A stretch of 35,751 nucleotides of DNA from a virus. The notes under the pieces were generated by a model. The model had not been told where the DNA came from, ran no database searches, and saw only the letters and a list, made by a program, of their open reading frames with translations. Below, in pieces: positions 4,104 to 29,363 of the stretch. Position 1 is the stretch's first letter. Each line of letters begins with the position of its first letter. The position numbers and the translations under genes were made by a program. The DNA lies in IMG/VR virus record IMGVR_UViG_3300024299_000026, positions 1 through 35,751 of that record; one strand, 5' to 3'.

Positions 4104-4137
4104 AATATATTTCCTGTATTTCTCAAAAGTAAGACTA

Positions 4138-4166
4138 ATTATACCTTATCTAGTGCTAGATGTCAA
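4138..4166 (-). promoter_or_regulatory. Sigma-70-type promoter, class 1 module
   Basis: Minus-strand TTGACA (4161-4166), 17 bp, TATAAT (4138-4143), followed by AGTCTTACTTTT. The whole stretch from about 4111 to 4168 is repeated with few changes at about 10034-10091. Confidence 0.85.
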
Positions 4167-4263
4167 CACTTATTTTTAGAATATTTTTAAAAATTGTCAC
4201 TATCCAAGTAATAATTGATATCGAAGAAAGTAGTAGTAGTAAATATTTAAACATTTCAGTTTT

Positions 4264-4494
4264 CTATAGATATTTTCCTAACTCAGATTGTTTTTCAAGT
4301 TTTAGTATCTGTTTCCATATTTTAAGTTCTTTAGATTTATCAATTTTAGAAGAAGCAAGATCTTCGTCACTTAACTCTTCTAATGCTGAAATGATACTGA
4401 ACATACCAGAAGAATCATAATAAGCAGATTTCACAGAACTAAGATCTGGAGTTTTAGCCTCTTTTAGAGTTTTAATTGTTTCTTTGTACAACAT
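4264..4494 (-). CDS. Small hypothetical protein, 76 aa
   Basis: A mostly helical, highly charged 76-aa protein rich in Lys, Glu and Ser (ELSDEDLASSKIDKSKELK, then KQILKLEKQSEL), possibly a short coiled coil. It is a single gene behind its own promoter at 4528-4557. An AAAAGGAAC-type Shine-Dalgarno precedes the ATG. No recognisable family; the early-type promoter suggests an early accessory function. Confidence 0.65.
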   Translation of the reverse strand: MLYKETIKTLKEAKTPDLSSVKSAYYDSSGMFSIISALEELSDEDLASSKIDKSKELKIWKQILKLEKQSELGKYL

Positions 4495-4527
4495 TATTGT
4501 TCCTTTTTAATTTTTAAAGTAAGATTC

Positions 4528-4557
4528 ATTATAGCATGGTGTTGACTTCCTTGTCAA
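4528..4557 (-). promoter_or_regulatory. Sigma-70-type promoter for 76-aa gene
   Basis: Minus-strand TTGACA (4552-4557), 18 bp, TATAAT (4528-4533), followed by a class-1-like AATCTTACTTT. Confidence 0.8.
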
Positions 4558-4580
4558 CCTTCATTTTTCAAATAAATGAA

Positions 4581-5518: not shown

Positions 5519-5690
5519 ACCGTACCCACATTTAAACGATTTTAACCTTTATAAGTCATTGATTACTAACATGAATAATAGTGCTATTTTCACTTAATAT
5601 TGTTATTGATGCAATGATACCTATTAGTTCTAGTTATAATGCATTTTAAACGATTATAATATATAACATGTTGAAACTATTGTAGTTTTA

Positions 5691-10019: not shown

Positions 10020-10060
10020 TGTAATATATATATTTCCTATATTTCCTAAAAGTAAGACTT

Positions 10061-10089
10061 ATTATACCTTAACTAGTCTTAGATGTCAA
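10061..10089 (-). promoter_or_regulatory. Sigma-70-type promoter, class 1 module
   Basis: Minus-strand TTGACA (10084-10089), 17 bp, TATAAT (10061-10066), then AGTCTTACTTTT. Near copy of the module at 4138-4166. Confidence 0.85.
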
Positions 10090-10332
10090 CTATAAATTAT
10101 TCATTCGAAGTAATCCTCTTTTTTTAATCTCTCTTAGTGTGACGCTAAAGATTAATCCAGAGGGTGTTGAATAGAATCTATCATAAATCCTATGTTGTGA
10201 ATATAAAAGTATCAACTCGTCATCAGATTTACTTTTAATATTAGTCACAATATCTTTTGGTGGTGTATCAAATCTACACCATCCATCAAGCAATCTTGTG
10301 AATGTTTTTGGTATTATTCTGAATAGTTTCAT
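10090..10332 (-). CDS. Hypothetical protein, 80 aa
   Basis: An 80-aa basic protein starting MKLFRIIPKTFTRLLDGW and ending EIKKRGLLRMNNL. It contains a DDELILLYSQHRIYDRF helix that resembles short DNA- or protein-binding helices, but I recognise no family. It begins 3 nt after the 56-aa gene upstream and stops directly at the -35 of the HAD promoter. Confidence 0.62.
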   Translation of the reverse strand: MKLFRIIPKTFTRLLDGWCRFDTPPKDIVTNIKSKSDDELILLYSQHRIYDRFYSTPSGLIFSVTLREIKKRGLLRMNNL

Positions 10333-12995: not shown

Positions 12996-14053
12996 AAAAT
13001 GTCCATCGACTGTGCTTCAACTAGTAAACTTTGCATCAAGTGTTTAATCCTTGGTTTGTCCAATTCAGTTTCAACTCCATCAACATAAGAATCTAATAAT
13101 TCTGTGGTGTCTTCTACTAGTACACCTTCATCATCAACATTCTCACCCAAGAATTCATCAAAGGATTCTGCAATTTTCAACTCATGTATATCTCGATCTT
13201 GTATTTTATCAATGAACTTATCAAAGAAATAAGGGTCTTTCTTTTTAACTACAAAAACCTTTACAAACTTATCATCAAGTTTCGTAAAATCATAGTCATC
13301 ATAGCACAACTCTTCATCATTGTATACAACTTTCTCAAACATTGTTATAGGGTTTAGAACCTTCTCTATGATATCAGTATCGGTGTCAAGGATATGGAAG
13401 TACTTTGGATCATGTGCATCTGCCCAAGTGAATTCCATTTGTGAACCAAGATAGTGTATATTATCGATAGAAGATTTTGTATGGAAATGTCCTGATATAA
13501 CCTTATCAAATCGTTTAAAGTTTGTTGTATCCATACCATGTGCATTGATAACACCTTTCATCATTTCAAACCCAACAAGTTCAAGATGTCCCGCCAGTAT
13601 AGTTGCTTTACAATTATTAACAAACTCAATAGATTTAGAATAGTTCTCAGAATTAATCCAAGGTAAAGCAGCAACAGAGGTTTTACCATATTTAAGAACC
13701 GTTGGGTTCATGATAATATTTACATTACCAGTATAATATCCAAGCAATTCTTTAAGGGAACAAAGTTCATTAGTATTCTTATAGAACACATCATGGTTTC
13801 CTGGAATAATATCCATATGTAAACCATTAAGTTTCAGTTTATCAAGGAAGTGTTTTCTATTAGCATTGAGTGCTTTAAAGTTGATGTACTTCCTGTGTTC
13901 GTAATAGTCACCAAGATGTAATATCTGTGTAATATTATTTTCCTTTAGGTAAGGAAAAAATACTTCAGAGTAGAACCTTTCTTGATAATTTATAAAAATA
14001 TCCGAAGAGTTCCTGACTCCCGCATGTGTATCGTTTAATATTGCTACTTTCAT
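12992..14053 (-). CDS. 47: Recombination nuclease subunit (gp47, Mre11/SbcD-like)
   Basis: Metallophosphatase-fold nuclease, 353 aa. Metal ligands are visible: D8 and H10 in NDTHAG, D49 in HLGDYYEHR, N86/H87 in PGNHD, then AGHLEL and SGHFHTK. It partners gp46, whose gene overlaps its 3' end by 4 nt, while its own ATG overlaps the gp55 stop by 4 nt. The C-terminal 90 residues are acidic and probably form the gp46-binding cap. Confidence 0.96.
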   Translation of the reverse strand: MKVAILNDTHAGVRNSSDIFINYQERFYSEVFFPYLKENNITQILHLGDYYEHRKYINFKALNANRKHFLDKLKLNGLHMDIIPGNHDVFYKNTNELCSLKELLGYYTGNVNIIMNPTVLKYGKTSVAALPWINSENYSKSIEFVNNCKATILAGHLELVGFEMMKGVINAHGMDTTNFKRFDKVISGHFHTKSSIDNIHYLGSQMEFTWADAHDPKYFHILDTDTDIIEKVLNPITMFEKVVYNDEELCYDDYDFTKLDDKFVKVFVVKKKDPYFFDKFIDKIQDRDIHELKIAESFDEFLGENVDDEGVLVEDTTELLDSYVDGVETELDKPRIKHLMQSLLVEAQSMDIL

Positions 14054-14628
14054 ATATCATCCATAAAGAATTCAAGTGCCTTTGTTTTTACTTCTTTCTC
14101 TTTGATTAGTTCCTTTACTTTTTCATCTTTATCTTTTACAAGAGTGATTCTTTCTTTTAGTTGTTCTACAAAGGAAACTTCAGAGTTCATATCTAATGCT
14201 TCGACTTCAGTTACATAGGAAACAAGGTCATTTATATCAATATTATCAATCCATTTGTATTTAATATCTTGCTGTTTCTTTTCTTTAGCAAGTCTTCTTA
14301 GGAAAGCATAGAAGCATATCTGTGTGAAATAAGAGAATGCGTTAGGTAATCCAGTTCTAGTCGCTGTTTCAATATTATAGTTCATGATAGCACGTAAACA
14401 GTTTTCAACACCGTCCATCACCATTTCATCTCTATAGGTGTATCGAATAAAGTTTGATTTGTGACTTAGACCTTCAGATATTTTTAGGAATGACATAGCA
14501 ATGTAGTCAGTCACTACAGGGATTGGTTGATCATCTTCGGTTGCTTTGTTAACAGACCTCACATAATCAACAACCGCATTACTAAATATTTTATTGTTTA
14601 CGTAGTGTGGTTTATCTTGTGGTTTCAT
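14050..14628 (-). CDS. 55: Late-transcription sigma factor (gp55)
   Basis: Divergent sigma factor that directs host RNA polymerase to TATAAATA late promoters, many of which are seen in this window. It is 192 aa (T4: 185). T4-like landmarks: YVNNKIFSNAVVDY at the start, ISEGLSHKSNFIRYTYRDEM, DGVENCLRAIMNYN, then NAFSYFTQICFYAFLRRLAK, the region 2-like core. The coactivator gp33 is not found in this window. Expressed from a class-2 promoter (14664-14692) and coupled to 47 and 46. Confidence 0.94.
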   Translation of the reverse strand: MKPQDKPHYVNNKIFSNAVVDYVRSVNKATEDDQPIPVVTDYIAMSFLKISEGLSHKSNFIRYTYRDEMVMDGVENCLRAIMNYNIETATRTGLPNAFSYFTQICFYAFLRRLAKEKKQQDIKYKWIDNIDINDLVSYVTEVEALDMNSEVSFVEQLKERITLVKDKDEKVKELIKEKEVKTKALEFFMDDI

Positions 14629-14663: not shown

Positions 14664-14692
14664 ATTATACTACATTTTCATAGAAAAGTAAA
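14664..14692 (-). promoter_or_regulatory. Sigma-70-type promoter for gene 55 (class 2)
   Basis: Minus-strand TTTACT (14687-14692), 17 bp ending AAAATGTAG, TATAAT (14664-14669). Back-to-back with the plus-strand promoter at 14718-14746, with 25 nt between the two -35 boxes. Confidence 0.75.
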
Positions 14693-14717
14693 GGGTTATT
14701 TTATATTGGGGAGGGGC

Positions 14718-14746
14718 TTGACATTTATGATAAAATGTAGTATAAT
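14718..14746 (+). promoter_or_regulatory. Opposite-strand perfect promoter, copy A
   Basis: Plus-strand TTGACA (14718-14723), exactly 17 bp, TATAAT (14741-14746). It faces away from gene 55 and into the antisense strand of the Sm-like gene and uvsW. About 35 nt downstream of the -10 are also conserved with copy B at 28557. No plus-strand gene is evident. Confidence 0.75.
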
Positions 14747-14780
14747 AAATCTGTCACCGGGGAAAATTGGGATAGGGTTA

Positions 14781-15125
14781 TTAATGTAGTGTAGAGGTAA
14801 AAGGCATTTCATTTACTAATAGTTCATCTATTGATGTTTCTTCATTGTGTGTTTCAGAAGCATTTATATATTCATCCCGTATATCATCAGTAACATAAGT
14901 AAAAGCAACAATATTGGATACTAATACTAATACTTCACCATCAACACCAAGTGGCATAAAAGGACTAAAAGTGTAACCATATATATCTTCTTTCTTTATG
15001 ATATGCAATTGTAATGGTGATGAAAGAACCATTACACCTCCTTCTGTTACTTCAAGTACCAAAGAGATAACTTCTTCACCAGTCACCAATTTAATATGCC
15101 TTATATCAACTTCTAATTCACTCAT
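14781..15125 (-). CDS. Sm-like small phage protein (copy 2)
   Basis: A 114-aa protein with VDIRHIKLVTGEEVISLVL, a typical opening of an Sm-like barrel found in marine T4-like phages, then YTFSPFMPLGVDGEVLVL and VAFTYV strands and an acidic tail. It resembles the 92-aa product at 2618-2896 in layout. ATG overlaps the uvsW stop (ATGA), and gene 55 follows. Function unknown; RNA binding is possible by fold only. Confidence 0.65.
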   Translation of the reverse strand: MSELEVDIRHIKLVTGEEVISLVLEVTEGGVMVLSSPLQLHIIKKEDIYGYTFSPFMPLGVDGEVLVLVSNIVAFTYVTDDIRDEYINASETHNEETSIDELLVNEMPFTSTLH

Positions 15126-16621
15126 ATGGAAACCTCATATATTTTGTATTTGAACTTCTCTCTAGTATATATTTTGATTCTTTCACTGGCATGTAGCAAA
15201 GTAAAATTCTTATTCTTTCTATAATGCAAATCATCAGCAATATCGAACAATCGGGTTTCTCGACCATCATCAGATTTTCTTAGACCACGACCAATAGATT
15301 GTAGCACTTTAATCTGTGATTTAGAAGGAGAAGCAAAGATGATATTATGTAAGTTCTTTATATTGATACCAGTAGAGAACGTTCCAAGTGAAGCAACAAT
15401 AATAGCATTCTTTTCAGTTTCTACAATAGTTCTAGTTTGTTCTCTAGTTTCGACATCAGTACCACCCGATACAAAGAATACTTTTCTTCTTGTATGTGCT
15501 AAACTCTTAATAATATCATACAAAGGTTTACCATGTTTCTCGACATATTGGTATAAAACTAAAGTATTACCATCTTGATCTAATGCTAATTTAGAGATGA
15601 ATTGATTTCTTCGTTCATGTCTAACAATATAATCTACTTCTTCTGGATACTTTGCTTTATTAACTAACTTGCATTCCACTTCTGGATATTTCAATAATAA
15701 TACAGAGATATCTAATTGAGCAAGTGAACCAGAATCCATTAATTTTTTAGTAGTAGTCACATAATAAGCAGGACCGAAACCACCTTCTAATACAAGTTTA
15801 TGAGTTGTTGTACCATCCAGAGTACCAGTAGTACCAAAACGATATTCCGCTTCTTTACATTTAGTAAGAATAGAAGTTAAAGATTTTGCTTTAAAGTTAT
15901 GTGCTTCATCACCAAGCACCATGCCATAAGGTTCAAACCATTGTCCATGTAATTTATAAACAGATTGCCAAGTTGATAAAGTTACTCTCTGATCAAATAT
16001 CTTTGCTTTACCTGAATAGATTTTATGACACATAGATTCCGCATCAAAGTTATCATCATACTGTGAATAATCCTCAAAATCTTTATATAACTGTTCCACT
16101 AGAGAAGTGGTTGGTACAATTATTAGTATTTTCTTTGAGTGGTTAGCAAGGTAATAACGTAATAAGATATAGATTATTAGAGATTTACCAGATGCTGTTG
16201 GTGATATTAGTAGTGCTTTTTTATTACAAAGACCATGATGTATTGCTTCTAATTGATAATCTCTTGGAACAATTTCTTTGCCACCTGAGGATAATGTTAG
16301 AGATGATATAAAGTTCATATCAATAACAGGTTTAGAATCAGGGATACCGTAGTAGTTACAGTGTTCCAATTCTATTACATAATCTCTACCAGGAGTACTA
16401 GCGAATTCTTTTACATATTGGAATAGTCCAGAGGGTAGTTCATGAGATCTAATATCGAATAATCGAATCTTACCATCCCACATTTTATTCTTATATGCGG
16501 GTATGAACTTATAACCAGGAACGTAGAATGTGAAAAAGTCACATAGTTCCTGAGCGATGCCGTAATCGCACTCTATCTGTAGGAATGCATGATTTTTATT
16601 ACGAATTTTAATGATTTCCAT
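15122..16621 (-). CDS. uvsW: UvsW-type recombination helicase
   Basis: SF2 DNA/RNA helicase that unwinds R-loops and branched DNA and drives the switch from origin- to recombination-dependent replication. It is 499 aa (T4: about 500). The N-terminal domain is about residues 1-110. Walker A is SPTASGKS (140-147), DEAH box GDEAHNF (D238-H241), a SAT-like FGTTGTLDG motif follows, and motif VI is QSIGRGLRK. The neighbour UvsY upstream and the gp55-47-46 operon downstream complete a recombination block. Confidence 0.96.
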   Translation of the reverse strand: MEIIKIRNKNHAFLQIECDYGIAQELCDFFTFYVPGYKFIPAYKNKMWDGKIRLFDIRSHELPSGLFQYVKEFASTPGRDYVIELEHCNYYGIPDSKPVIDMNFISSLTLSSGGKEIVPRDYQLEAIHHGLCNKKALLISPTASGKSLIIYILLRYYLANHSKKILIIVPTTSLVEQLYKDFEDYSQYDDNFDAESMCHKIYSGKAKIFDQRVTLSTWQSVYKLHGQWFEPYGMVLGDEAHNFKAKSLTSILTKCKEAEYRFGTTGTLDGTTTHKLVLEGGFGPAYYVTTTKKLMDSGSLAQLDISVLLLKYPEVECKLVNKAKYPEEVDYIVRHERRNQFISKLALDQDGNTLVLYQYVEKHGKPLYDIIKSLAHTRRKVFFVSGGTDVETREQTRTIVETEKNAIIVASLGTFSTGINIKNLHNIIFASPSKSQIKVLQSIGRGLRKSDDGRETRLFDIADDLHYRKNKNFTLLHASERIKIYTREKFKYKIYEVSI

Positions 16622-16641: not shown

Positions 16642-17088
16642 TTAAGCACCAGATTCAAATCTACGAAAATCGAGGGCATTCTTAATTGTTGAATGTCTCC
16701 ATTTAACATTATTAATAATTTCTTCGAGTGTATCTAAAACAGTTTTTAGTTCGAACAATTGAAGTTGCATTGTTTGAATGTCTACATCGGAGTCGTAGTA
16801 TTTATCCATATCACCTTTAAGGATTTTCAGACCATTTAGTGCATCATACCCCCAACCAAGATCATCCATTTGTGATCTTGACAATTTACCATTATACCAT
16901 AAGAATTTATGTTTAAGTAGTGTTTTATATTTGAGGTCTAATTTCTTGTGTTGTAGTTTAACAATAGCATAAAGTTGAAGATATTTGGAATGAAGTTTAG
17001 GTGTTTCAAGTGAAGCATCATCTAATTTCAGTCTATCTATTTGACAATCTTTGTTCCACAATTCAAGTATATTTTCTAGTTGTAACAT
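16642..17088 (-). CDS. uvsY: UvsY recombination mediator
   Basis: Loads UvsX recombinase on single-stranded DNA displacing gp32. It is 148 aa (T4: 137). Similarity in pattern to T4 UvsY is clear at LKLDDASLETPKLHSKYLQL, the lysine-rich helix with YNGKLSRSQMDDLGW, and the ending IKNALDFRRFESGA, which corresponds to T4 IKHIQDMRAFEAGK. GGAGG lies about 7 nt before the ATG. Neither UvsX nor gp32 is in the window. Confidence 0.88.
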   Translation of the reverse strand: MLQLENILELWNKDCQIDRLKLDDASLETPKLHSKYLQLYAIVKLQHKKLDLKYKTLLKHKFLWYNGKLSRSQMDDLGWGYDALNGLKILKGDMDKYYDSDVDIQTMQLQLFELKTVLDTLEEIINNVKWRHSTIKNALDFRRFESGA

Positions 17089-25136: not shown

Positions 25137-26834
25137 TTAGAACATACCAGTATTTATAGTTTCCCATTGTACCCCATCTTCTACTGTAAAAGCATCTTCT
25201 CTACCATCATCAAAAATGCCTACAGGAACAATATCATCTTCCATTGCTCTTACTTTCTCTGAATATAATAAATTCTTAATATTTATATCAGTCATTTCAC
25301 CAAAGAATGGTGTGGAAGTGAACCAAGCAAACAGAACAAGGTTCATTACTAAATCATCATGGTTTCCTCGTGATGCCTCAAAAGAAGAACCTCGTGATAT
25401 AAAAGTAGATAACTCAATAATTGTATTAGCATCATTTATCTTTAATTTATTCTGCTCAATAATATCTTTCATATTAGATGTACCAATTCTTTTGATCTTC
25501 TTGGTCATTGTAACACCAATAGAATTGCTTTTAATTATCGATTCAACATAAACATTTTCATATTCTAGTTCATAATATAATCCATTACAAACAATAGAAC
25601 CTTGATCATTTGATTCTACTATTATATATGCCTCATTATATAACATAGCATATTTATATAATACATCAGGATATAATAAAGGAGATATATTATTATCTTG
25701 GAAAACACAAACTTGTTCAAAAGGTGATGATGTTATATCAATAATATTAAATGTAGAATAATCTTGACCACGACCTTTAGCAATATCAACGAACATCATA
25801 TACTCATGACCATGTTCTGGATCTTTATAAACTCTTAGATTATAAGTTTCCTTTATTGGATCAATCGCATTAAGTGTTAATAAACATTCTGGTGTTACCA
25901 GTGTATCAGAACCACCAATAAATGAGTTACCAAATTCTTGGGTAAATTGCAATTCAGAAGTGTTAGCAATAGTTTGTCTTTTCCATTCTTCATCACGTCC
26001 AGGAACATCTTGCCAATCTACCCTGAATGGTTTAAAGTCGTTAGTCTTTTGATTAGCACCTTCCCATAACTTATAGAATACATTACCAATACCATTAGCG
26101 GTTGAGGTGATAATAATTCTTGTAGATGTACCAGAAGATACAACAGGATAAGTTGATGTATAAAATGTAGCATCATTCTCAATGAAAGCAAACTCATCCA
26201 AGAACAATAATGATACAGATAAACCACGAATAGAAGAGCCAGAAGTTGCGGCAGCAACAATCTTAGAGTTATTAGAGAATTCTATTGAACCTTTATTTAG
26301 GGTTTTACATCCTGGTTGTAAGAAGAATGGTAAGTTTTCTAACATTAGGGTGACACGTGACAACATTTCACGAGCAGTGGCACCTTTGTTTGCTAGTATT
26401 GCGATCACTTTTTCTGGATTGAATATAGCATACCATAGCAGATATGCAACAGATGATATACTATTATGACTTAATATACCATTAGAATAAAATGTATGAT
26501 TATCCGAATCTATTGACAGATCATACATATGTTCTTTAAGATAATCTGGTTTAACCACTGAAGATACTATACTATTACCCTCAATAGTTTGTATCATAAC
26601 CCCTAGAGAATCTTTGGCATAAACTTCATTACCAAATGAATCTATAACGATGTGTGTATCCGCACACTCTAAGAAATGTCCATTTTCTGTAACCAATTTC
26701 CACACATCATATTCAATAGTTTTCTTACTAGATGTTATATCCTTATATCCATCCTCTGTAAGAATTTCATAATCACTCACATCAAATTCTTCAATAAACT
26801 TTCTTTCAGTTTTATCAGATAGTAATTGGTTCAT
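25137..26834 (-). CDS. 17: Intein-C fragment fused to large terminase C-terminal part (gp17-C)
   Basis: 565 aa. Residues 1-124 are an intein C-terminal fragment: a block-B-like ECADTH (His61) and the terminal NGILSHN, where His-Asn is the splice pair and Ser is the first C-extein residue. The rest is the packaging ATPase/nuclease: SISSVAYLLW continues Walker A, Walker B LLFLDEFAF (D213, E214), coupling motif ITSTANG, nuclease acids D350 in FVDIAKGRGQDY, E407 in IIVESND and D493/D494 in GNHDDLVM. The ATG at 26834 is chosen because AGAGG sits 6 nt before it; an upstream ATG at 26861 lacks a ribosome site. It overlaps the endonuclease gene by 20 nt. Active terminase requires trans-splicing with the product of 27836-28213. 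Confidence 0.95.
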   Translation of the reverse strand: MNQLLSDKTERKFIEEFDVSDYEILTEDGYKDITSSKKTIEYDVWKLVTENGHFLECADTHIVIDSFGNEVYAKDSLGVMIQTIEGNSIVSSVVKPDYLKEHMYDLSIDSDNHTFYSNGILSHNSISSVAYLLWYAIFNPEKVIAILANKGATAREMLSRVTLMLENLPFFLQPGCKTLNKGSIEFSNNSKIVAAATSGSSIRGLSVSLLFLDEFAFIENDATFYTSTYPVVSSGTSTRIIITSTANGIGNVFYKLWEGANQKTNDFKPFRVDWQDVPGRDEEWKRQTIANTSELQFTQEFGNSFIGGSDTLVTPECLLTLNAIDPIKETYNLRVYKDPEHGHEYMMFVDIAKGRGQDYSTFNIIDITSSPFEQVCVFQDNNISPLLYPDVLYKYAMLYNEAYIIVESNDQGSIVCNGLYYELEYENVYVESIIKSNSIGVTMTKKIKRIGTSNMKDIIEQNKLKINDANTIIELSTFISRGSSFEASRGNHDDLVMNLVLFAWFTSTPFFGEMTDINIKNLLYSEKVRAMEDDIVPVGIFDDGREDAFTVEDGVQWETINTGMF

Positions 26835-27940
26835 CAAATGCCTCTGTGGTTTTAAATCCATTATAGTTCACGTTAATTCTTATATCTTTATGCAAATTTA
26901 ATATAGATTGTTCTGCTTTAAAACACTCATAGAATGTCATATTTTTATTTTCAGTAATAATATCCATATTAAGATTATATTTATTCATTGAACCAAAACG
27001 TTCTTTTATTGTACGTGATGTTATACCAACCTTCCAAAATACTATATCTTCATTATAAAATTTAATAAGATATAATATACCTGGTATATTTTTCATCTCA
27101 GGTTTCCTGTTAAACAATTGGTTCATTCTTCCTGTACCTTTCTTTTGATTAATAATATCAATTTCTTCAGGTGTCTTATCTTTAAGGGTTTCTTGCCACA
27201 CATCTTGTCTTTGTTGCCATCTTAATTTTCCCGCTTCTTCTCCATATTTTTCAATACACGATTTTAGTGAGAATGTCGATTGCCTTTCTGATAGTGCTGC
27301 CTTAGCATCATCTATTGATAAACCTTGTGCTAAATAAAATTCAATATTTGTGTGTTGATTTTGTGGATTATCTTTAACACTTTGCATCTTCTTTTTAACA
27401 ACATCTTCAATTGAATAATCAACAGAACCATCTTGATATTTCACAAACTTATTTGAAAATGGACTTAATCTCCCTCCATGCTGAAATGCTGGATTCTTAC
27501 TACCTAACATTCTATCAGAATATTTAGTTAATACTTTATCAGACAATATAGCAGCAGAATCATATCTATCCTTATATTCACTTATAGTAACATTATGGGA
27601 ATTTATTATATGTTGTCTTATATCATCTCTGTAATATATATTACATATTCTACAAGTAACACCACCAATATCAGGTCTTTCCAATTCATTATATAATCTT
27701 GAGATCTTTTGACCTATAGGTTTATTCTTCATATTCTCAAATATCATATCATGCGTGGATATGATATTTTCTATGTTATCTTTATATAACACATGTTTAG
27801 ATCTACCTTTGTTGTTAGATTCTTTAATTATTCTGTTACATATTTCTTTTAATTCTTTCATGAAAATCTCCAATGCTTATACGTTCTTCTATATTAGTTT
27901 TCTTGTTCCTAATATATATATAAGAATTAAAAGTTTGACA
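26463..27940 (-). mobile_element. Split intein with embedded homing-endonuclease gene in gene 17
   Basis: The cassette interrupts the Walker A codons of the large terminase between Lys and Ser. In transcription order: intein-N (34 codons, 27940-27839, first residue Cys), stop codon, endonuclease ORF (27861-26815), then intein-C (124 codons, 26834-26463, ending His-Asn). If removed, the exteins join as CRQSGK-SISSVAY, a complete Walker A. The very short intein-N and long intein-C match the atypical TerL split inteins described from aquatic metagenomes (for example AceL-TerL, same protein), and the in-between endonuclease matches the published 'fractured gene' arrangement. Confidence 0.92.
26815..27861 (-). 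CDS. Homing endonuclease between split-intein halves
   Basis: 348 aa from the ATG at 27861, which has GGAG 6 nt upstream (a TTG at 27873 is unlikely). N-terminal third has a C2H2-like zinc site (CRICN with HIINSH), then a SKNPAFQHGG motif. The middle carries LAQGLSIDDAKAALSERQST and KYGEEAGKLRWQQRQDVWQE, a module common in marine phage homing endonucleases. The C-terminal 85 residues (GILYLIKF, then FWKVGITSRTIKERFG, then FKAEQSIL) look like a GIY-YIG-clan nuclease (T5orf172/MUG113 type), with Tyr, Gly, Arg and Glu in order. A Vsr-like (EDxHD) reading cannot be excluded. It overlaps both terminase parts, so all three are translated in tandem. It should cut intein-less gene 17 and spread the cassette. 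Confidence 0.82.
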   Translation of the reverse strand: MKELKEICNRIIKESNNKGRSKHVLYKDNIENIISTHDMIFENMKNKPIGQKISRLYNELERPDIGGVTCRICNIYYRDDIRQHIINSHNVTISEYKDRYDSAAILSDKVLTKYSDRMLGSKNPAFQHGGRLSPFSNKFVKYQDGSVDYSIEDVVKKKMQSVKDNPQNQHTNIEFYLAQGLSIDDAKAALSERQSTFSLKSCIEKYGEEAGKLRWQQRQDVWQETLKDKTPEEIDIINQKKGTGRMNQLFNRKPEMKNIPGILYLIKFYNEDIVFWKVGITSRTIKERFGSMNKYNLNMDIITENKNMTFYECFKAEQSILNLHKDIRINVNYNGFKTTEAFDEPITI

Positions 27941-28213
27941 TTTACCAGATTGTCTACAAGCAAGAACAATAGAGAATCTATTATTATTGAAGTGATCGAA
28001 CATATTTTCTTGATAATCGTATAGATCGAATGGAACTAAACCTCTATCAAGATGAATAACTTTTAGATAAGTTCTAGCAAAGTATGCAGGATCATTCATA
28101 CACTTTGAGTATTCATCAATCTCTTCTTGAGTCCAGTTCTGATTTATACCATCTTTTTTGACAAGGGGATTACCAAGATACCCCTTTGTTTCAACTTTCT
28201 GAATCGATTTCAT
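27836..28213 (-). CDS. 17: Large terminase N-terminal part fused to intein-N (gp17-N)
   Basis: 125 aa. Residues 1-91 are the terminase N-terminus: YFARTYLKVIHLDRGLVPFD, then LYDYQENMFDHFNNNRF, then IVLACRQSGK, ending at the Walker A lysine (K91). Residue 92 is the intein Cys1, followed by 33 residues with the block-A-like CQTFNSYIYI and ERISIGDFHERI, then stop. A frameshift is not the explanation: the break lies at a classic intein site and the second half starts with an intein-C. The ATG overlaps the gp16 stop by 23 nt and has no good Shine-Dalgarno, so it is probably coupled to gp16. Confidence 0.95.
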   Translation of the reverse strand: MKSIQKVETKGYLGNPLVKKDGINQNWTQEEIDEYSKCMNDPAYFARTYLKVIHLDRGLVPFDLYDYQENMFDHFNNNRFSIVLACRQSGKCQTFNSYIYIRNKKTNIEERISIGDFHERIKRNM

Positions 28214-28538
28214 TTGGAGTCACATCTTTCACATTCTCTAATAACAATCTCTGTAGATCTGTTGTAGATCCAATATAAACATTATTTTGAGTTAATTGTG
28301 CTGGGGTTTCAAGTTCACCAGATTTAATGACTTCTATTTTCTTCTTTTGTAGTTCCATTAATCTATCGGCAATCTCAGAGTTTTGTTTGATCATATTAGA
28401 TAGAACTTCAAAGGTACGTGGTGCTTCTTGTTCTCTTGCCAGTTCCATCATCATATCAATTGCTTCATCATTCTTGGTGATCATGTCGTAGTATTTAGAT
28501 CTTGCATACTCATAATCTGCATCTATTTCAGTTTTCAT
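28191..28538 (-). CDS. 16: Small terminase (gp16)
   Basis: Small terminase subunit that recognises DNA and regulates the gp17 motor, 115 aa (T4: 164). The T4-like centre is seen: DYEYARSKYYDMITKNDEAI, MMMELAREQEAPRTFEVLSN, a LQKKKIEV helix and the C-terminal NNVYIGSTTDLQRLLLENV, equivalent to T4 NATVFMGSPTEL. The central antiparallel helices form the oligomer ring. It overlaps gene 17 by 23 nt. The opposite-strand promoter B lies just upstream. Confidence 0.88.
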   Translation of the reverse strand: MKTEIDADYEYARSKYYDMITKNDEAIDMMMELAREQEAPRTFEVLSNMIKQNSEIADRLMELQKKKIEVIKSGELETPAQLTQNNVYIGSTTDLQRLLLENVKDVTPNEIDSES

Positions 28539-28556
28539 AATTTAGTTCCTAGTGGG

Positions 28557-28585
28557 TTGACATTTGTTATAAAATGTAGTATAAT
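28557..28585 (+). promoter_or_regulatory. Opposite-strand perfect promoter, copy B
   Basis: Plus-strand TTGACA (28557-28562), 17 bp, TATAAT (28580-28585), in the gap between genes 15 and 16. Nearly identical to copy A at 14718-14746 from the -35 through about 30 nt past the -10. Transcription would be antisense to genes 15, 14 and 13. TGACAT before and ATGTCA after form a wide inverted repeat. Confidence 0.75.
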
Positions 28586-28616
28586 AGATATGTCACTGGG
28601 AAAGATTGGGATACTA

Positions 28617-29363
28617 TTAATCTTTAACATTATTATTAATATTATCAATACCTATTACTATAGGATCGACAGTACCATCAACAGTGATTTCTTCTAAGAA
28701 CCCAAATGTATCACCATCAATAAAATCAATAGCAGCAGTTTTAATAATAGCATGAGTAGAAACTGGACCATAGAATCTTACTCTTAGATCAAAGTCTAAA
28801 GAATATACAATTGCTCTACGAGTCATAAAGTCACCAGTATAATCATCTGATAAAGTCACACCAGTTAATACAATAGGAACATCCCCTTTAATACCCAACT
28901 CAGGAACTTCATTAATAGTGATAGTATATTCTGGTTGAAAATATGGCATTATCTGTTCTATTACTTGAAGAGCATCATCTTGGTTCTTTGCCATAATGGA
29001 TAATTGAATACCCATTCTATAAGGAGCACTAGTATATACTACACTTTTATTATCAGGATCACCAATAATAGGTTTAGACATCCTGTTCATTTTATTAAGT
29101 TTAGAAGTATTATCGTATGTCAAAGAAGTAATTTCAAAAGACATACGAGGTAATTTAATAGCAACTTTAGGATCATTCAAGTTGCTTTGTTCTTCTAATC
29201 TAGCAAGGAACTTCTGTCTTGGTCCATATGCTAAAGGTACTCTTGTAATTTGTTTTACTTCTCCAGCAGAATCCTTTCTTATAACTTTTATATCATTAAA
29301 TAATGAACCAAAAGCGGCAATTGTTCTTCTAATTGAGGCATGATAAAAATGATTATTCAACAT
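28617..29363 (-). CDS. 15: Tail completion/sheath terminator (gp15)
   Basis: Caps the sheath and joins tail to head, 248 aa (T4: 272). T4-like stretches: NNHFYHASIRRTIAAFGSLF, TRVPLAYGPRQKFLARLEEQ, then LPRMSFEIT, APYRMGIQLSIMAKNQDDAL and VIEQIMPYFQPEYTITINEV. Shares one base with the gp14 stop (TAATG). Confidence 0.94.
   Translation of the reverse strand: MLNNHFYHASIRRTIAAFGSLFNDIKVIRKDSAGEVKQITRVPLAYGPRQKFLARLEEQSNLNDPKVAIKLPRMSFEITSLTYDNTSKLNKMNRMSKPIIGDPDNKSVVYTSAPYRMGIQLSIMAKNQDDALQVIEQIMPYFQPEYTITINEVPELGIKGDVPIVLTGVTLSDDYTGDFMTRRAIVYSLDFDLRVRFYGPVSTHAIIKTAAIDFIDGDTFGFLEEITVDGTVDPIVIGIDNINNNVKD

Follow-up and report, generated by a model that had tools for sequence, protein, structure and literature searches.

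A conserved antisense promoter cassette beside the late sigma factor gene of T4-like marine phages, with a possible role in replication

Genes and promoters around the cassette

The window, i.e. the whole stretch of 35,751 nt of viral DNA under study, carries its substantial genes on the minus strand throughout, as a first-pass annotation had stated. They include a gp55-like late sigma factor, a small gene, the helicase uvsW, and the recombination mediator uvsY (Table 1). The small gene, which in cyanophages is called 'methylamine utilization' or T4-GC 139, had been labelled 'Sm-like'. This label found no support, as nothing in Pfam passed the threshold and the PHROGs matches were weak, to families either without known function or annotated as 'methylamine utilization'. 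Besides UvsW and UvsY, the window encodes a polymerase, a clamp, and a clamp loader. The large terminase gene (window 25137-28213, minus strand) is split into the pieces 27836-28213 and 25137-26861. An ORF inserted in it (26815-27873) has the look of a homing endonuclease, and the second piece carries an intein-like sequence at its start.

Table 1. Genes, promoters, and conserved transcript starts around copies A and B (positions in the window)
Feature	Position	Strand	Remarks
gp55-like late sigma factor	14050..14628	-	PHROG 234, E 9e-48
gp55 sense promoter, TTTACT-17-TATAAT	14664..14692	-	divergent from copy A
Copy A antisense promoter	14718..14746	+	-35 TTGACA 14718-14723, 17-nt spacer, -10 TATAAT 14741-14746
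Conserved start of copy A transcript, AAATCTGTCACCGGGGAAAATTGGGATA	14747..14774	+	part of 63-nt repeat shared with copy B; sharply bounded in the four copies
Small gene between uvsW and gp55	14781..15125	-	
uvsW helicase	15122..16621	-	PHROG 16, E 1.5e-101
uvsY recombination mediator	16642..17088	-	PHROG 231
gp16 terminase small subunit, one flank of copy B	28191..28538	-	PHROG 445
Copy B antisense promoter, TTGACA-17-TATAAT	28557..28585	+	in the gp15/gp16 intergenic gap of 78 nt
Conserved start of copy B transcript, AGATATGTCACTGGGAAAGATTGGGATA	28586..28613	+	63-nt repeat
gp15 tail sheath stabilizer, other flank of copy B	28617..29363	-	PHROG 227

The gap before gp55 contains a flawless TTGACA-17-TATAAT promoter on the plus strand (14718-14746), which opposes the genes and stands back-to-back with the gp55 promoter (14692-14664, minus strand); both features had been claimed from the sequence and both are borne out. 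The RNA of this copy, termed copy A, is predicted to begin at about position 14753, and the 3' end of the small gene lies opposite its transcript. Perfect TTGACA-N15-19-TATAAT sites occur eight times in the window, compared with 0.22 expected from shuffles. Six of them are found on the minus strand, the gene strand, and the remaining two are copy A and a second plus-strand promoter, copy B, whose transcript runs opposite the 3' end of the gp15 gene. The T4-type late promoter TATAAATA is present 14 times, in every case on the minus strand, which indicates that the two promoters on the plus strand belong to the early or middle sigma70 class and run counter to late transcription. An overlapping sense-strand promoter was considered for copies A and B and rejected by eye, as no convincing -10 box was seen.

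Copies of the cassette and their conservation in relatives

Copies A and B share 63 nt at 86% identity (14712-14774 and 28551-28613). A conserved stretch of about 35 nt beyond the -10 box had been described earlier; the conservation stands, the length does not, as the conserved part stops about 28 nt after the -10 box. Shuffled sequence gave zero chance matches to the 20 nt downstream, TGTCACYGGGRAARATTGGG, even when three mismatches were allowed. A pattern scan of IMG/VR returned 18 stretches, with copies A and B and, in other contigs, a third copy C. Copy D was found by a mismatch search of the IMG/VR records from that scan. Contig G004 overlaps both the window (16,861 nt, 99.99% identity) and contig G002 (23,025 nt, 100%). 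The window, 312 nt, and G002 were joined into a piece of 107 kb belonging to one phage, and a T4-type RNase H and gp59 are encoded on its G002 part. The cassettes are located at positions 14718 (+), 28557 (+), 65173 (-), and 88048 (+) of this piece. The phage carries at least four copies, so the further copies that the first-pass annotation had proposed to look for do exist.

All four copies are intergenic, and in each the promoter is directed against both flanking genes. Copy A is placed between the uvsW-adjacent gene and gp55. Copy C is flanked by a gp4-like gene and one of PHROG 429 ('DNA end protector'), and copy D by genes of PHROG 407/DUF7207 and PHROG 18642. Copy C is on the opposite strand because its flanking genes are as well. 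Compared in pairs, the four copies have identities of 0.86-0.93 across the promoter and 0.72-0.90 across the next 29 nt; in the 40 nt before the cassette, identity falls to 0.20-0.47, and in the sequence after it to 0.31-0.59. These sharp edges identify the promoter and the first ~20-25 nt of the transcript as the unit that is copied or kept. The element is a discrete repeated cassette of about 60 bp with flanks at background identity.

Other noncoding repeats were observed in this phage. A 145-nt segment occurs at window 5530-5674 (-) and at G002 52052-52196 with 93% identity, the latter directly downstream of promoter copy D. The two ends of the segment bear near-identical AATCGTTTAAA, and a search of the segment for RNA structure found none. 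Repetition is also seen among the early promoters of the gene strand, which fall into families whose leaders are conserved (TTGACATCTAG..GGTATAATTAGTCTTAC..AGGAAATATATTATG), located at window 4105-4167 and 10028-10090 (-) and at G002 38361-38438, 38537-38614, and 59040-59118.

For the comparison with relatives, 80 related loci were pulled with uvsW, and the gap before gp55 was compared in 41 non-redundant sequences, named phages included. An antisense promoter is present in 39 of the 41, with 17-nt spacing in 37 and 16 nt in one more (S-SM2); the gp55-gap element of locus L075 was recovered by a profile HMM. In a control with 40 dinucleotide shuffles of each gap, the promoters were usually unmatched. 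Ten further cyanophages, Syn9 among them, carry the antisense promoter at this site. The antisense start is predicted near 123,698 (minus strand) in Syn9 (NC_008296.2) and near 120,709 (minus strand) in P-HM2 (NC_015284.1), where the promoter is weaker; the isolate C48C1 has the strong form. Cyanophages with the element include S-CAM9, P-SSM2, S-SM2, S-PRM1, S-CAM7, MITS9220M01, S-SRM01, S-H38, ACG-2014d, ACG-2014e, S-RIM2, S-RIM12, S-RIM14, P-SSM7, Syn9, and P-HM2; it was present in every cyanophage examined, with a weaker -10 box in some. The two exceptions among the 41 are L007 and Melnitz, whose gp55 gaps lack the antisense element. L007 is a close sister with a 93% identical gp55, and its 79-nt gap between the uvsW side and gp55 (4489-4565) keeps the sense promoter. 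When this site was compared with the named phages by blastn, only chance-level matches were obtained, and the conservation is visible by synteny alone. The lack of conservation in related phages that the first-pass annotation named as grounds against its proposal is thus not what was found.

The -35 box follows the dialect of each phage. In the phage studied here, the cassettes have TTGACA, as do 18 of 18 other promoters, and in G013 both the cassettes and 21 of 21 other promoters have TTTACA. The cassette of G014 has TGTACA, in a genome where TGTACA and TTTACA occur in a ratio of 4 to 2. This covariation argues strongly that the element works as a promoter, and the element is almost certainly a conserved antisense promoter cassette. 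It also bears on a very unlikely alternative, in which the promoter likeness is incidental and the gene-sense strand carries a C-/U-rich stretch after the stop codon that serves Rho-type termination or protein binding. The cassette does often begin a few bases from the upstream stop codon, and in the sense direction it is C-rich and G-poor. However, the exact 17-nt spacing, the invariant -10 box, and the dialect-following -35 box are hallmarks of an antisense promoter, and an intrinsic terminator was not found at copies A or B.

Additional strong copies are known from two relatives by profile search, one in G013 beside a ribonucleotide-reductase-like gene and one in G015 in the tail region, both intergenic and antisense to both neighbours. 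Across all loci, the strong profile matches are antisense wherever they could be placed. Weak matches on the sense strand (E above 1e-5) were rejected, as those inspected looked like ordinary promoters followed by ribosome sites. Judged by sequence comparison, the gp55 site is family-wide in the Kyanoviridae, and the other sites are lineage-specific.

The family-wide conservation of the gp55 site would also be expected of a divergent switch, in which a polymerase sitting on the antisense promoter would set the timing of late transcription, either by competition with the gp55 promoter or by twisting its DNA. The antisense -35 box of most cyanophages examined overlaps that of the divergent gp55 promoter, often as CTTGTCAAG, so two polymerases could hardly be bound together, and such a switch is plausible in these phages. 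As a general explanation it is unlikely, since the two promoters are about 50 bp apart in several relatives, and copies B, C, and D as well as the second copies of G013 and G015 are not near gp55.

Composition of the transcript start

The first-pass annotation had suggested that the RNA start itself may matter, and the start of the transcript was indeed found to be conserved together with the promoter. An alignment of 36 sequences of this phage's non-cyanophage clade shows the order of an invariant -10 box, ten purine columns, and then TATAC. The purine columns, at about +11 to +24, contain 9 pyrimidines in 357 cells (A 104, G 244), compared with 245 pyrimidines in 612 cells of the promoter spacer. 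Purine runs of at least 10 are found in 19 of 32 elements and in 1 of 68 other perfect promoters, and GGG runs in 30 of 33 elements versus 6 of 71 ordinary promoters. That A and G are interchangeable while pyrimidines are excluded points more to selection for hybrid stability or strand composition than to a base-specific protein site.

Hybrid stability was scored as the nearest-neighbour energy of RNA:DNA minus DNA:DNA over 30 nt. The elements have a mean of -6.3 kcal/mol, compared with -0.4 kcal/mol for other promoters of the same genomes (p 6e-16, which overstates the independent evidence because the sequences are kin). The four copies of this phage score -5.2 (A), -3.5 (B), -5.1, and -4.5 kcal/mol. 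The transcript starts of cyanophages are related in sequence, e.g. AACTCTGTAAGGGTTGATGGGAT in P-SSM2, but are not hybrid-stable (mean -0.4, p 0.31 versus other promoters). In the non-cyanophage clade, the conserved transcript start is very probably functional. In S-CAM9 (L113), the antisense leader AACTCTGCCAGGGTTCAAGAGA is also found behind two sense promoters, at 141740 and 170646, one of them directly before an ATG; part of the conservation may therefore be that of a general leader.

The combination of a strong promoter with a conserved transcript start could also indicate a small RNA that acts in trans. This is highly improbable, as the transcript has no RNA fold (z = +0.38), which leaves the idea of a structured small RNA unsupported. 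Moreover, it matches no Rfam family, no reading frame in it is consistently kept, no terminator was found near copies A and B, and its conservation stops so soon after the -10 box. An antisense coding start was likewise rejected: the ATG that often comes after the purine tract corresponds, on the other strand, to the final His codon and stop of the upstream gene, and in several phages a stop follows immediately, here as ATG TAG. A G-quadruplex was rejected by eye, as this phage has too few G tracts.

Candidate roles and known systems

The tentatively favoured reading is that the cassette acts in cis as an early promoter whose nascent RNA forms an R-loop, as part of a T4-type origin module. Host RNA polymerase, unmodified or in middle mode, would fire the promoter early. 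The nascent RNA of the non-cyanophage relatives, rich in purines and G, would remain on the C-rich template as an R-loop, the T4-type RNase H of the phage would trim it to a primer for leading-strand DNA synthesis, and UvsW, made late, would remove the R-loop. Replication would then start as it does at T4 oriE and oriF, but from a sequence module common to several sites, which the T4 origins do not have. A cis role is made likelier than the regulation of one target by the fact that the copies face different genes (gp15, gp4, PHROG 407/DUF7207, and others). The same fact weakens the idea of a target-specific antisense RNA, as the genes opposite the other copies are unrelated. The promoter class, perfect sigma70 and not the late type, fits the predicted use before late transcription, and UvsW, RNase H, clamp, and polymerase are all encoded. 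Regarding other origin features, GC skew shows no switch at copies A, B, and D, and cumulative skew tracks the gene strand; no distinct A+T-rich unwinding element was seen in a genome that is 66% A+T throughout. The R-loop idea, raised in the first-pass annotation, thus fits the purine- and G-rich start of the non-cyanophage relatives but not the cyanophage versions, which keep the promoter without a hybrid-stable start. The absence of the element from the gp55 site of the sister L007 and of Melnitz also counts against the origin reading.

Antisense interference, with no role in replication, is a possible if somewhat doubtful alternative. Here, the late operon whose end lies at the cassette would be opposed by early RNA or by colliding polymerases. 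Premature expression of late genes (at copy A, uvsW and the small gene beside it) would thereby be curbed, and the next operon insulated. This would agree with the placement of the copies, all of which are antisense and adjoin gene 3' ends, several of them in late-gene blocks, and with the confinement of the late promoters to the opposite strand. Furthermore, the promoter alone would suffice, which is the part that cyanophages retain. However, interference leaves unexplained why the first ~25 nt belong to the sharp-ended copied unit and why a tract in them is restricted to purines, and its targets vary from copy to copy.

More tentative still than the R-loop origin proposed for this phage is the generalisation that the Kyanoviridae may carry a sequence-defined, multi-copy origin module, with a fixed site before gp55, lineage-specific extras, and an antisense promoter joined to an R-loop-forming start. 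Until R-loops or nascent DNA are observed, the cassette is best classed as a candidate and not as an established T4-type origin. To our knowledge, the replication start sites of T4-like marine phages are not established. Even for T4, what governs R-loop formation at origins is counted among the open questions (PMC3016281). With a conserved sequence that pattern searches can pick out in many genomes, the mapping of origins would become directly testable. Even if the cassette were merely a regulatory antisense promoter, its family-wide conservation at one site and its repeated, always antisense copying are unexpected and suggest a common control step near the genes of the late sigma factor and UvsW.

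Several known systems resemble the cassette in part. PeSL of T4-type phages are mobile early-promoter cassettes, and the elements described here are likewise dispersed, intergenic, and equipped with an early promoter. They differ in that no stem-loop terminator is present (fold z +0.38; none at copies A and B), and whereas a PeSL drives a gene, all copies here are antisense to both flanks. CfrI in cyanophage S-PM2 is an antisense RNA over psbA and thus an example of antisense transcription in a T4-like marine phage, as predicted for the present cassette. It concerns another gene, however, and is not known to involve a promoter cassette common to several genomes. At the mitochondrial light-strand promoter with CSB II and in ColE1 RNA II, a G-rich transcript behind a promoter remains hybridised and serves as a primer for DNA synthesis. 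This likeness is one of mechanism only, as hosts and polymerases are unrelated. The T4 origins oriE and oriF/oriG share with the cassette a promoter of pre-late type, several sites per genome, and a location in late-gene regions, and the phage studied here encodes UvsW and, on contig G002, gp59 and a T4-type RNase H. In contrast to the single copied cassette with a G-rich transcript start, for which an origin role is inferred, the T4 origins share no sequence motif, and they use MotA middle promoters together with an A+T-rich unwinding element at oriF/oriG.
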